A stretch of DNA of 64,000 nucleotides. It comes from Thiomicrospira aerophila AL3 (GTDB taxonomy: Bacteria > Pseudomonadota > Gammaproteobacteria > Thiomicrospirales > Thiomicrospiraceae). Numbering within the stretch: position 1 is the stretch's first letter; each line of letters opens with the position of its first letter. Made by a program: the position numbers and the translations under genes. The notes below the pieces were generated by a model. That model saw only the letters and a list, made by a program, of their open reading frames with translations. It was not told the DNA's origin and made no database searches. Below, in pieces: positions 9,220 through 12,986 of this stretch. Location: assembly GCF_000227665.2 (NCBI RefSeq), contig NZ_CP007030.1:124001-188000 (forward strand), given 5' to 3'.

Positions 9220-11067
9220 ATGGATAACTATTATTTTGTGGGTGCAGTTTGGAATGGTGACGAGGACAAAACAAATGAGTTTCTCGAGTGTGGTTACTGG
9301 GAGATGGGCTGGTCCCCAGCAGATAAACCCAAATTGGCAGAGCAAGTAAATCAAATTAAACCGGGCGAATGGATTGCTATTAAAGCCGTGAGTGTGCAGA
9401 AAAATAACTTGCCATTTGCTGGTGTTCCATTGGGTAAATCCGTTTCTAAAATGACAATTAAAGCGATTGGTCAGGTTGCGTCAAATCCACAAAATGGCAA
9501 GCGCGTATATGTCGATTGGCAAACCGATTTTAAGGTGAAGGATTGGTTTTTCTTTACTTATCGCGGAACTTTTTGGCGCATAAATGAACAAGGGCAGTGG
9601 TGGTCGCAGTATGCCAGTAAGTTGATTGATTTTGCTTTCAATAATAAGCCACAGGATTATGATTACTTTGTTAAAAATTGGAGCTGGAATCAAGAGGCTA
9701 TTGAGATGGATGAAAAAAATGAAATGGGTGGAGAGCATGAAGCCTTGGCACTGAATACCATTCTTTACGGCCCACCGGGAACAGGTAAAACCTTCAATAC
9801 CGTGGATATAGCTTGGCAGATATTAAATACAAACGATTCTGCTGACACCACCAGGCCTGGTTCGATTCAAGAACTGAAATCACGCTATCCCGGGCAAGTT
9901 GAATTTGTCACCTTCCACCAAAGTTTTAGCTATGAAGATTTTGTTGAAGGGATTCAGGCGAAAACCCATGATGGCAAAATCAGCTATCAAGTGGAAGATG
10001 GGGTGTTTAAAGCCCTTGCGAAGTCTTCGTTAAAAAATCTTCAGGATAGTAAGAAGTCTCTCACTGAACTAAACCAAGAAGTTGAATTCAAATCTCGCTT
10101 AACGGATTTTTTATCGAATGCGATTGAAACAGAACAGGGGTTTGATAAAAAACGAGGCAATCCATTTTATATCGTTGAGGTTGAGCAAGATAGCATCACA
10201 CTCCATTCTGTCGATTCGAAGTTTAACGAGGGGAACATTGCAGTTAGCCTTGATGATTTAATGGCGGTATGTACTTCGTTAATCGATTTCGAAGCCCCGA
10301 AAGATATTGCACAACAGCTTTTTAACAAGCGTCATGCACGCCAGCATGATAGTTATTTGTTTAGTCTTTGGCAGGCCTTTAAAAGGTTTAATCAGCATAA
10401 TAATTCAACGGTTGAAGTTGCAGAAACAGTCAAGGTTCTGCCACACGTCCTCATCATCGACGAAATCAATCGCGGTAATATTTCGCGGATTTTTGGCGAG
10501 TTGATTACGCTGATTGAACCGAGTAAACGCGCGGGCAATGACGAGGTGATTGAGGTCACCTTGCCTTATTCTAAAGAGCCCTTTTCCGTTCCCAATAACC
10601 TGTATATTATCGGCACGATGAATACCGCCGACCGTTCATTAGCGTTAATGGATACGGCCTTGCGCCGCCGATTTGATTTTATCGAAATGATGCCACAACC
10701 AGGCCTGGTAACGGAGGATTTGGAGGGGGTTGATCTGCGTAAAATGTTGCAGGTGATGAATCAACGCATTGAAGCCCTCTATGACCGTGAACACACGCTG
10801 GGTCATGCGTTTTTAATGAGTGTGGATTCGTTGGATGATTTGCGCCACGCATTTAAAAACAAAATCCTACCGTTGCTAGAAGAATACTTTTACGACGATT
10901 GGCAAAAAATACGTTGGGTACTCGGGGCGAGTGCGGATAACTTTTATGTACCGCAATCCTTCAGTCATTTATTCAGCGGTAATGATGCAAACATAGAAAA
11001 TAAGTTTCTGCGCAACAACTTGGATGACCTAGATGACGAAGCCTTTGTAGCGATTTATCAATCTTAG
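9220..11067 (+). CDS. mcrB: McrB-like AAA+ NTPase of a modification-dependent restriction system
   Basis: Motor subunit that binds modified DNA and, with McrC, cuts it; known McrBC systems act on purine-methylcytosine pairs. The 615-residue protein has an N-terminal domain of about 155 residues (YYFVGAVWNG, IKPGEWIAIKA) that looks PUA/EVE-like, which is an inference and would be the base-reading part. Then come Walker A GPPGTGKT at 184-191, Walker B VLIIDEINRG near 408, and the McrB signature MNTADRS near 466, followed by ALMDTALRRRFDF. Two CAGGCCTG motifs lie inside the gene, as in its neighbours, so it is not obviously a recent import. Confidence 0.9.
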   Translation: MDNYYFVGAVWNGDEDKTNEFLECGYWEMGWSPADKPKLAEQVNQIKPGEWIAIKAVSVQKNNLPFAGVPLGKSVSKMTIKAIGQVASNPQNGKRVYVDWQTDFKVKDWFFFTYRGTFWRINEQGQWWSQYASKLIDFAFNNKPQDYDYFVKNWSWNQEAIEMDEKNEMGGEHEALALNTILYGPPGTGKTFNTVDIAWQILNTNDSADTTRPGSIQELKSRYPGQVEFVTFHQSFSYEDFVEGIQAKTHDGKISYQVEDGVFKALAKSSLKNLQDSKKSLTELNQEVEFKSRLTDFLSNAIETEQGFDKKRGNPFYIVEVEQDSITLHSVDSKFNEGNIAVSLDDLMAVCTSLIDFEAPKDIAQQLFNKRHARQHDSYLFSLWQAFKRFNQHNNSTVEVAETVKVLPHVLIIDEINRGNISRIFGELITLIEPSKRAGNDEVIEVTLPYSKEPFSVPNNLYIIGTMNTADRSLALMDTALRRRFDFIEMMPQPGLVTEDLEGVDLRKMLQVMNQRIEALYDREHTLGHAFLMSVDSLDDLRHAFKNKILPLLEEYFYDDWQKIRWVLGASADNFYVPQSFSHLFSGNDANIENKFLRNNLDDLDDEAFVAIYQS

Positions 11068-11076
11068 GAGTGAGCT

Positions 11077-11121
11077 ATGCCAATTTTAAATCTTAGAGCG
11101 CATTCGAGGAGCAGATTATGA
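11077..11121 (+). CDS. Possible 14-codon coupled ORF ahead of the DUF2442 gene
   Basis: The ATG at 11077 follows a strong ribosome site (AGGAGTG, 4 bases spacing), encodes MPILNLRAHSRSRL and ends in a TGA that overlaps the next start as ATGA. It may be a leader peptide giving translational coupling, or the trimmed remnant of a gene once paired with DUF2442. No homology can be claimed for so short a peptide. Confidence 0.35.
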   Translation: MPILNLRAHSRSRL

Positions 11122-11369
11122 TTAAAATCTTAGATTGTCAGTATGAAGTGGGAGGGCGGATCAAGTTGGCCTTTTCAGACGGCACTGAGGGGGTATTTAA
11201 CTTAGCGAATTACCTCAAAAATCGCAGGGGCGAATTACTGGAAAAACTAAAAGATGAGTTGTTTGCTGCTCGTTGTTTTATTGATGCCGGCGCTTTGTGT
11301 TGGCCGAATGGATTGGAGTTATCGCCGCAACGGTTGTATGAGTTAGTACATCATAAACAGGTGGCGTAA
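11118..11369 (+). CDS. DUF2442-type small protein inside the mcrBC operon
   Basis: An 83-residue soluble protein. MIKILDCQYEVGGRIKLAFSD followed by G-x-F-(D/N)-L and, after a charged helix, the end segment LCWPNGLELSPQRLYEL is the DUF2442 pattern. The biochemical function of that family is not established; its members often sit beside DUF4160 or toxin-antitoxin-like genes. The gene begins in the stop of a 14-codon ORF and its stop is followed at once by the mcrC start, so it is embedded in the restriction operon and probably made together with it. Confidence 0.75.
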   Translation: MIKILDCQYEVGGRIKLAFSDGTEGVFNLANYLKNRRGELLEKLKDELFAARCFIDAGALCWPNGLELSPQRLYELVHHKQVA

Positions 11370-12656
11370 TTGAGCAATCACCTCGTCGTGCGCGAATGGG
11401 GACGGATCGTACGCGCTCAACACAATGCACAAAATAGCTTTGATGAAATTGAAGTCAATGACCAGGCCTGGTTGTTTCTGTCTAAAATCGCGCAGTCGTC
11501 GGATAAACATCATCGTTATTTAAGTTTTGTGAACTCGCACACCTTAAAGGTGCGGGGTTTTGTGGGCGTGATTGCCACGCCTGATGGCGTGCAAATTGAA
11601 ATCTTACCCAAACATGCGCCGACCCTTGATGCACCAGGCCTGGTGGATAGCCGCAAGCTGTTATTACGGATGCTGAAAGCGGCGAAGGTGTTGCCGTTTA
11701 TTGAATCCACCGATGCGTTAATTGACACAGTCAAACAACCCTTGCCAGAGGTGCTGATGGGTCGGTTTTTGCAGGACTTGGCGCAAGTGGTGCGCAAAGG
11801 CATTCGTAAAGACTACCAGCGCATCGAGGCGCAAGAACGGTTTTTAAAAGGTCAGCTGCAAACCGCGCGTCAACTGCGCCAATCGCCCGCCAAACAAACG
11901 CAGTTTTGTATTGAATATGATGTGTTTAGCGATAATCGGGCAGAGAACCGCCTGATTCATTCGGCATTGATTTTGGTCACCAAGTGGAGTCAGTATTTAC
12001 CGAACCAAAAGCTGGCGCGTGAATTACGTTTTGCGTTTGATGACGTGCCCGAATCGCGCCATATTGCGCAGGATTTGCAGGCCTGGCGTACTAGCCGCGA
12101 TATGCAGTATTATCAAAACTTACTGCCGTGGTTAAAGCTGATTTTAAGCCAGTACAGTCCGTTTGCCACCGCCAATCAGCATGCCGGTATTTCGTTTTTA
12201 TTACCGATGGAAAAGTTGTTTGAAGCCTATGTCGCCAGCGAAATTCAGCGTGCATTGCCGTCGGATTATCGGCTACAAACCCAATCGACCCAGCATTACT
12301 TGGCGACGCAAACTAACAGACCGATATTCCAGCTGCGACCAGACCTGGTGATTTATCGTGACAATGAACTCGTGGCGGTGTTGGATACCAAATGGAAGTT
12401 GCTCGACCAAAATCAACCCGACGGCAAAGCGGGCATCGCGCAAGCCGATATGTATCAACTCTTTGCCTATGGGCAAAAGTGTTTGCCCGGCAAAGGGCGA
12501 TTGATATTGATTTATCCGCAGTGGACGGGATTTACTCAACCGCTTGCGCCATTTGAGTTCAGCGAACATTTAACGCTGGATGTTATTCCGTTTGATTTGG
12601 ATAATGAACAACGTAATATCAACAACCAGGCCTGGTTGTGTCATTTATTAGGATAA
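11370..12656 (+). CDS. mcrC: McrC-like nuclease subunit
   Basis: Partner of McrB that carries the PD-(D/E)xK nuclease. The nuclease core is visible near residues 322-345: RPDLVIYRDNELVAVLDTKW, giving the Asp and the D-x-K pair. The length of 428 residues is usual. The start is a TTG at 11370, directly after the stop of the DUF2442 gene with AGGTGG upstream, and no in-frame ATG nearby would give the expected N-terminus. The gene holds four exact CAGGCCTG motifs, the densest stretch of the window, and one degenerate copy at the nuclease core. Confidence 0.9.
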   Translation: MSNHLVVREWGRIVRAQHNAQNSFDEIEVNDQAWLFLSKIAQSSDKHHRYLSFVNSHTLKVRGFVGVIATPDGVQIEILPKHAPTLDAPGLVDSRKLLLRMLKAAKVLPFIESTDALIDTVKQPLPEVLMGRFLQDLAQVVRKGIRKDYQRIEAQERFLKGQLQTARQLRQSPAKQTQFCIEYDVFSDNRAENRLIHSALILVTKWSQYLPNQKLARELRFAFDDVPESRHIAQDLQAWRTSRDMQYYQNLLPWLKLILSQYSPFATANQHAGISFLLPMEKLFEAYVASEIQRALPSDYRLQTQSTQHYLATQTNRPIFQLRPDLVIYRDNELVAVLDTKWKLLDQNQPDGKAGIAQADMYQLFAYGQKCLPGKGRLILIYPQWTGFTQPLAPFEFSEHLTLDVIPFDLDNEQRNINNQAWLCHLLG

Positions 12657-12662
12657 ATGTGA

Positions 12663-12920
12663 ATGTGTATTGTGGCGCTGATTATTGCGGTAGGGTTATT
12701 GATTTATTATTTAGATAGCCATTTAGAAAATTGGCATTTGGTTGAGCGTTTGGATACGCACAGCGAGATCACCTTGGCGGTTGGTTGGGAGATGATTCCG
12801 GCATTTTGGCCGCTGATTGCGTTGAGTGTGATTAGCACCTTAGTGGCGGTGATGCTGTATCAACGGATTTTTAATAAAACACAAATCGGTTGCTCAAGCT
12901 GCCCAACGGATAAGTGTTAG
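12663..12920 (+). CDS. Small membrane protein with Cys-rich tail, unknown function
   Basis: 85 residues. The N-terminal segment CIVALIIAVGLLIYYL and the segment AFWPLIALSVISTLVAVML are two likely transmembrane helices joined by an acidic loop. The C-terminus IGCSSCPTDKC carries a C-x2-C-x4-C arrangement that could bind metal or form disulfides. TTAGGA sits 9 bases before the ATG, and the gene starts 6 bases after mcrC, so it is probably co-transcribed with the restriction genes. I do not recognise the family. Confidence 0.65.
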   Translation: MCIVALIIAVGLLIYYLDSHLENWHLVERLDTHSEITLAVGWEMIPAFWPLIALSVISTLVAVMLYQRIFNKTQIGCSSCPTDKC

Positions 12921-12952: not shown

Positions 12953-12986
12953 AACCCCCACGCACCAGGCCTGGTGCGTGGGGGTT
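12953..12986. terminator. Bidirectional terminator between the mcr operon and metY
   Basis: A perfect 34-base palindrome centred on CCAGGCCTGG (12966-12973 is the 8-base core), with AA/TT ends outside a CCCCC/GGGGG stem. It separates two convergent genes. The right side continues as TTTGCTTT, so the T-run is modest for the plus strand; the left side is A-rich for the minus strand. Confidence 0.75.

Follow-up and report, generated by a model that had tools for sequence, protein, structure and literature searches.

An McrBC restriction operon of Thiomicrospira aerophila AL3 with a probable toxin-antitoxin relic at its mcrB-mcrC junction

The element considered here is a restriction operon at 9220-12920 on the forward strand of a 64,000-nucleotide stretch of the Thiomicrospira aerophila AL3 genome (positions 124,001 to 188,000 of contig NZ_CP007030.1), referred to as the window. 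Its mcrB and mcrC genes make up an ordinary, intact-looking pair of the known McrBC kind of restriction system and are separated by a small gene of the DUF2442 family. The locus is very probably an EVE-type McrBC operon with a toxin-antitoxin cassette of the DhiTA type at the mcrB-mcrC junction, from which the toxin gene was later deleted internally and the antitoxin gene left. Its likely function is modification-dependent restriction, together with a relic antitoxin gene whose 3' end holds the start region of mcrC. In Thiomicrospira, the genus of the relatives found at this locus, the junction is an unusual, recurrently occupied site for known kinds of toxin-antitoxin module.

The deletion is recognised by comparison with two congeners. 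Nine genus genomes were compared, labelled G000 (the window genome, a single contig of 2,158,359 bases) to G008. In G006 and G004 an intact 88-aa DUF4160 gene lies between mcrB and the DUF2442 gene (PF13711, E 1.4e-22 and 1.6e-23). The window retains the first 11 nt of this gene (11/11 identical to G006, 10/11 to G004) and its last 34 nt (30/34 and 28/34, respectively), and the next-best match of the 3' segment within 18 kb of G006 reaches only 21/35 as a 35-mer. Between the start region and the old 3' end 218 nt are missing, so that the DUF4160 frame is lost; the remnant (11077-11125, plus strand) keeps both ends and now reads as a 14-codon open reading frame (ORF). Most of it falls within the 50 bp (11068-11117) that separate mcrB from the DUF2442 gene. 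Judged from these alignments, this gap is the scar of a putative toxin gene whose deletion left the antitoxin gene behind. The first-pass annotation had described the DUF2442 gene as joined without gaps, which holds for its TAA, immediately 5' of the mcrC TTG, but not for mcrB and DUF2442; the 85-aa ORF follows 6 bp past mcrC, as annotated.

The DUF2442 gene itself (11118-11369, plus strand) encodes 83 aa and matches PF10387 (8.4e-9, 36.0 bits vs. a cut-off of 23.9). Its product is 70-75% identical to the DUF2442 proteins of G006 and G004, where the DUF4160 partner is intact. Given these intact pairs and the remnant in the window, the window copy is an orphaned antitoxin-like gene. In Dickeya dadantii 3937, overproduction of the DUF4160 protein of DhiTA is reported to inhibit growth, an effect abolished by co-expression of the DUF2442 protein (PMC8198452). 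Of this organization the window has the antitoxin gene, placed after the toxin position, but no intact toxin gene, which is present in G006 and G004. Searches with DUF2442 gave no match among solved structures at E 1 and none among plasmids, and a literature search for McrBC together with DUF2442 found nothing.

The flanking gene mcrC (11370-12656, plus strand), the nuclease subunit, matches PF10117 (E 8e-95, 317.9 bits vs. a cut-off of 23.9), and its TTG start abuts the DUF2442 stop. mcrB (9220-11067, plus strand) encodes an N-terminal domain (approximately residues 1-145, 9220-9654), which we read as EVE/YTH-like, followed by an AAA+ GTPase domain (AAA_5 6e-15, 55.9 bits vs. a cut-off of 22). 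The McrB model PRK11331 is matched at 1.5e-33 and 116 bits, under its equivalog cut-off of 637, and in PADLOC McrB matches the REase_II model (E 2.5e-12); at E 1 PADLOC returned no match for the DUF2442 protein, McrC or the 85-aa protein. The four genes named by the first-pass annotation (mcrB, DUF2442, mcrC and the Cys-tailed 85-aa ORF) therefore all exist, and profile matches confirm the families of the first three.

The N-terminal 167 residues of McrB have no Pfam match at E 10, and a sequence comparison of the domain with solved structures returned two weak ribosomal-protein rows (E above 1). An AlphaFold2 model of 165 residues (eight sequences, pLDDT 81.3, pTM 0.78) has MJECL36 and PH1033 as its best solved matches (Foldseek E 6e-4 to 8e-4; VIA Z 8.4-8.9). 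Other VIA matches are the VcaM4I endonuclease (Z 8.2), YTH domains (Z around 7), the EVE namesake 2eve (Z 6.4) and the N-domain of McrB from T. gammatolerans (Z 5.3), where a Z below 8 alone counts as weak by the tool's own note. Since nearly all listed VIA rows are EVE-, YTH- or related reader domains, we read the modelled McrB N-terminus as an EVE/YTH-like fold resembling modified-base readers. Of the architectures in which EVE proteins occur in defence systems, EVE-McrB is reported to be the commonest (PMC7641849). On what is known of the family, McrB would read modified bases through this domain, and McrC, once activated, would cut the modified DNA together with McrB.

McrB varies between species in its N-terminal part. 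The N-terminal type of the window is common to G000, G006 and G008, and other types occur in G003, G004 and G005 (39-47% DNA identity in the first 450 nt). The middle of mcrB (approximately 9970-10420) reaches 50-67% identity with G008, G006, G005 and G004 and 39-54% with G003, in contrast to the segments on either side of it, which match G008 at 87% and 92%; in the GTPase region this middle segment is probably an insert that has been swapped. Because both segments differ between species, the McrB specificity regions have probably been exchanged between them, as has been described for McrBC at large (PMC11090510).

Three points weigh against the proposed reading of the operon. The three best Foldseek rows have low TM-scores, 0.35-0.42 of query. 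The DhiA equivalog model NF048016 is 160 positions long, compared with 83 aa here, and is matched weakly (4e-6, only 27.3 bits, equivalog cut-off 200); given this low score and the shorter protein, an antitoxin function of the short DUF2442 protein is presumptive. Finally, the window gene does not appear to evolve faster than its toxin-paired relatives, which a retained function of its own, anti-addiction for example, would also fit: the pairwise non-synonymous distance (dN) is 0.228 and 0.188 for the pairs that include the window and 0.262 for G006-G004. The synonymous distance (dS) is saturated, and hence no date of toxin loss is obtainable from it.

In the genus, close McrC proteins occur in six of nine genomes, with orthologues 77-92% identical in the five besides G000. 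In G003 and G005 the junction is empty, the mcrC ATG following immediately on the mcrB stop. The DUF4160-DUF2442 pair or its relic occupies it in G000, G004 and G006, and in G004 additional ParDE-like and YefM-YoeB pairs stand right after mcrC. A different pair is present in G008: its toxin has a PIN domain (PF01850, E 2e-12), and the partner of this toxin has no Pfam match at 0.01. G002 contains a same-type pair as a ruin beside scraps of mcrC, with vapB intact, vapC frameshifted and truncated, and mcrB gone. For both genomes the name VapBC rests on the PIN toxin and gene order, and the junction position in G002 is inferred. DUF2442 is thus found at three of six mcrBC loci, two being empty and one holding another module, and at five of seven loci or ruins (all but G003 and G005) the junction contains a toxin-antitoxin module or what remains of one, amounting to at least two insertion events. 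As an observation apart, the G008 mcrB is interrupted by an in-frame stop at codon 41, within its EVE-like domain (L014 6805-7305), beside an intact-looking VapBC-type pair.

Outside the genus the junction looks different. In a phylum sample, PF10117 is matched in 38 of 398 genomes (G000 included). From these, 29 loci were taken (L088-L116; 11 weaker match rows received no locus) and L114 was dropped at a contig end. All 28 readable mcrB-mcrC pairs lack a gene between them, their ORF ends overlapping or lying at most 17 bp apart; for several mcrC genes the first-start rule sets the start too far upstream. An upstream ORF with an McrB-like motif (text pattern) is present in 27 of the 28, L112 being the exception. 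Fisher's test of 5/7 in the genus against 0/28 in the phylum gives 6e-5, the seven being relatives and not independent. A class sample has McrC matches in 16 of 369 genomes, and the 15 loci fetched contain no recognised toxin-antitoxin module in the gap; ten are clearly without a recognisable gene there, L078 and L083 have another architecture, L080 and L087 are truncated or broken, and L082 is unresolved. L078 is a second, distant locus of G006. On plasmids, five of six regions read are tight mcrB-mcrC pairs, and H5 has an insertion sequence adjoining mcrC (among the best 30 of 173 records). In contigs of the phage collection that share the McrB N-terminal domain of the window, an mcrC-like ORF, short in L181, directly follows the mcrB-like one in 8/8 cases read by eye; McrC has no relatives among 87 pattern stretches of viral contigs. 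Literature titles and abstract starts, among the matches listed, mention no toxin-antitoxin module between mcrB and mcrC. At the class locus L074 (G379, 2448-2910) a ribbon-helix-helix antitoxin and a RelE-like toxin, both recognised by eye, end 12 bp before the mcrB-like ORF, placing this pair beside, not inside, mcrBC.

The first-pass annotation took DUF2442 for an extra small subunit and the 85-aa product for a membrane partner, both functional parts of an uncommon McrBC defence unit. The tight operon order, the contact of stop and start, and the presence of DUF2442 at the junction in three genus species speak for this, yet we give it hardly any credence. mcrBC occurs without DUF2442 in G003 and G005 and with a VapBC-type module instead in G008, no pair outside the genus (0/28) has a gene there, and the small protein is found without mcrBC in G001 and G007, beside scraps in G002 and outside the G003 insertion. 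A conserved McrBC subunit was accordingly rejected (two of six genus junctions empty, one with another module, 0/28 outside), and the order mcrB-DUF2442-mcrC-membrane gene is not conserved, DUF2442 standing in three of six genus loci and in 0/28 readable outside pairs. DUF2442 is better described as the antitoxin half of a DUF4160-DUF2442 module, for which other genus loci have a different module or nothing. A role of DUF2442 in restriction is not supported, and one specific to McrBC is unproven, since such modules occupy other operon junctions too. How the ORF outlived its toxin may instead lie in its last codons. They contain AGGTGG, five bases before the mcrC TTG, which can serve as a ribosome-binding site of mcrC, and TAATTG would allow re-initiation; G004 and G006 have a similar layout (AGGCGG, then TGATTG or TAATTG) and G008 has TGATG. 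Because these 3' codons overlap the mcrC start region, the antitoxin ORF would be kept after the loss of the toxin, which may also be recent, with translation of mcrC coupled to it. It is not very likely that the orphan is kept instead as an anti-addiction antitoxin neutralising related DUF4160 toxins, incoming or resident. Retention of antitoxins after toxin loss is reported to be frequent and has been interpreted in this way (PMC8198452), two DUF4160 matches exist elsewhere in G000, and the window DUF2442 shows no speed-up; however, the resident DUF4160 toxins adjoin DUF2442 partners of their own, and the overlap with the mcrC start region also explains the kept ORF.

The preferred course of events, in which a DUF4160-DUF2442 cassette would have come to lie exactly between the mcrB stop and the mcrC start and its toxin gene would later have lost 218 nt, is compatible with several reasons for the position of the cassette. 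Moderately probable is that such modules ride on tight co-directional junctions of any operon, borrowing transcription and translation and remaining neutral for McrBC; this concerns only why the cassette sits there. Among 25 DUF4160 loci listed in relatives (five contig-edge cases set aside), eight of the 20 evaluable ones have tight co-directional neighbours on both sides, by eye, and represent five distinct sites, mcrB-mcrC accounting for two of the eight loci. Two more DUF4160-DUF2442 pairs of the window genome lie in junctions read by eye as hldD-waaC and hslU-DUF971-ubiE, and elsewhere junctions were read as def-fmt, nuoK-nuoL and ruvC-ruvA (housekeeping loci L002, L145, L143, L140, L144, L155, L205 and L206, gene names by eye). 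The class-wide excess over YoeB modules is not robust: it depends on the neighbour rule (4/18 vs. 0/21, p 0.037; 5/23 vs. 1/24, p 0.097; 4/18 vs. 1/21, p 0.16), the loci are not independent, and the values are suggestive rather than claimed as significant. In addition, VapC-type modules nest as well, by eye. Because the same module type occupies housekeeping junctions, general riding is favoured over an McrBC-specific partnership, and a specific attraction of the cassette to McrBC is not supported, given the same finding. Joint defence, in which recruited cassettes act with mcrBC, the toxin bringing on dormancy and McrBC meanwhile clearing phage DNA that is modified, is decidedly improbable; the window copy would have lost this arm. 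It draws on two unrelated modules at one junction in different species, on the ParDE-like and YefM-YoeB pairs after mcrC in G004, and on a type I restriction locus of the window genome (L022 1952-7745; G000:C1:342000-354000) where a DUF2442 gene without DUF4160 and a RelE/ParD-like pair lie between hsdS and hsdR (hsd and RelE/ParD names by eye). Because E. coli MqsRAC is reported to act in concert with McrBC against T2 (PMC10783111) and DarTG2 to lie within the operon of a type I restriction system (PMC12255303), joint action keeps a place among the explanations; however, the position needs no defence reason when the module type also occurs in housekeeping junctions, and a junction module is missing from two of seven genus loci and present at 0/28 elsewhere. 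A stronger version is quite unlikely: unrelated toxin-antitoxin cassettes would dock at the junction time and again, swapped in translational register to give a restriction-plus-dormancy operon, and in the window the toxin arm would be lost and the antitoxin kept because mcrC translation depends on it. Very doubtful, finally, is an addiction lock, whereby deleting the operon would take the antitoxin away and set the toxin free, and whereby loss of the toxin, as seen in the window, would release the lock. The state of G002 (no mcrB, scraps of mcrC, vapC broken and vapB intact) is what one would expect were the toxin lost before the operon. Against strict addiction stand G007, which lacks approximately 5.8 kb of mcrBC plus modules, the intact-looking pair of G008 despite its mcrB stop, and the reported failure of Dickeya dhiTA to stabilise a plasmid in E. 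coli (PMC8198452).

The gene downstream of mcrC (12663-12920, plus strand) encodes an 85-aa protein that by eye looks like a two-helix membrane protein and ends in CSSCPTDKC (C-x2-C-x4-C). It is a resident neighbour outside the McrBC unit, being present in nine of nine genus genomes, including G001 and G007, which have no mcrBC, and G002, which has scraps. G001 and its close relative G003 are colinear save for one large step, 40 bp vs. 3.2 kb with mcrB and mcrC, located between a VWA-domain gene and the small-protein gene and leaving the latter outside. Compared with its close relative G004, G007 lacks approximately 5.8 kb, from before mcrB into yoeB (mcrB, DUF4160-DUF2442, mcrC, the ParDE-like pair, YefM and part of YoeB), and differs by another approximately 0.8 kb upstream. 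A 3' stub of yoeB remains before the small-protein gene, for which reason the absence in G007 is read as a loss. mcrBC is hence a unit of its own, placed before the resident gene of the small protein, and this protein, supposed earlier to be a membrane partner, is a bystander, found as it is in three genomes without working mcrBC.

G008 presents a phylogenetic conflict. In the small protein and in the 426-aa gene that converges on the small-protein gene, it stands very close to G000 and G002, and in mcrC to G000 (dS 0.2-0.4). Its pyruvate-kinase-like gene is most like those of G004 and G007, conflicting with its other genes (identities only; loci L014/L126, L019/L125 and the window). The conflict suggests exchange within the genus.

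The motif CAGGCCTG is found 30 times in the window vs. 0.55 expected by chance (sites include 675, 9132, 12966 and 63327), and is for this reason a property of the genome and not of the module. The first-pass annotation had counted seven motifs in or next to the module; the count is six inside 9220-12920 and three more within 400 bp (9132, 12966 and 13312). CCAGGCCTGG occurs 263-815 times per genome in 9/9 genus genomes, with 0 for the backwards-read control, and CAGGCCTG four to six times in each mcrBC stretch of six of them. As the motif is genus-wide and also present in the mcrBC stretches, the mcrBC locus is old in the genus or exchanged within it; together with close McrC in six of nine genomes, this bears out the earlier proposal of a module old in the lineage or acquired from a related genome. 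As a highly iterated palindrome, CAGGCCTG/CCAGGCCTGG resembles cyanobacterial HIP1 or uptake sequences, and a literature search on the motif found nothing among the matches listed, which is no proof of absence. At 12955-12984, where the small-protein gene and the 426-aa gene converge, CCCCCACGCACCAGGCCTGGTGCGTGGGGG forms a perfect inverted repeat between the two. It has the look of a bidirectional terminator with the iterated palindrome at its centre.

Methylated GGCC had also been suggested as an McrBC target in this organism. C5-methyltransferases of PF00145 are matched in 0/9 genus genomes (the control matched in 10 of 14 genomes; N4-methyltransferases were not searched), and a methyl-GGCC conflict is thus left without a candidate enzyme of this family. 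The suggestion finds no backing here, and a conflict through self-methylation of GGCC was rejected on the same grounds.

The appearance of a new McrBC subunit, tempting but wrong, arose from a cassette nested seamlessly in the operon that then lost its toxin, and it can now be removed. What takes its place is a series within Thiomicrospira (an empty site, bare mcrBC, two cassette types, a toxin-dead copy, a ruin and the loss of the whole unit) that provides a compact natural experiment on the gain and loss of toxin-antitoxin modules in defence operons. This series makes two ideas testable, namely that toxin-induced dormancy cooperates with McrBC and that addiction is a reason for embedding.

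Among known systems, the locus is close in plan to type IV McrBC restriction, with E. coli K-12 as prototype and EVE-McrB as subtype. It shares the mcrB-mcrC order, the AAA+ NTPase and a McrC family protein, and its McrB N-terminal domain, as modelled, resembles modified-base readers. By contrast, E. coli McrB is described with a DUF3578 N-terminus (PMC7641849) where the window has a predicted EVE/YTH-like domain, and the junction of the window carries a toxin-antitoxin remnant that distinguishes it from E. coli K-12 McrBC. As in the DhiTA system of Dickeya dadantii 3937, in the account given of it (PMC8198452), the G004 and G006 modules have the toxin gene first and the antitoxin gene second with a short overlap, and the DUF2442 half is retained in the window. 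However, the window antitoxin has 83 aa as opposed to the 160 positions of the DhiA model, the toxin is deleted, and the module is placed inside mcrBC. The DarTG2 module of the RRDM island likewise lies between genes of a restriction operon, but the system is type I, the toxin belongs to another family, and activity against phage is reported for the island (PMC12255303). In the MqsRAC case a toxin-antitoxin system and McrBC are reported to act together against T2 in E. coli; unlike the cassette described here, MqsRAC has another toxin family and was supplied on a plasmid in those experiments, not from within the mcrBC operon (PMC10783111).

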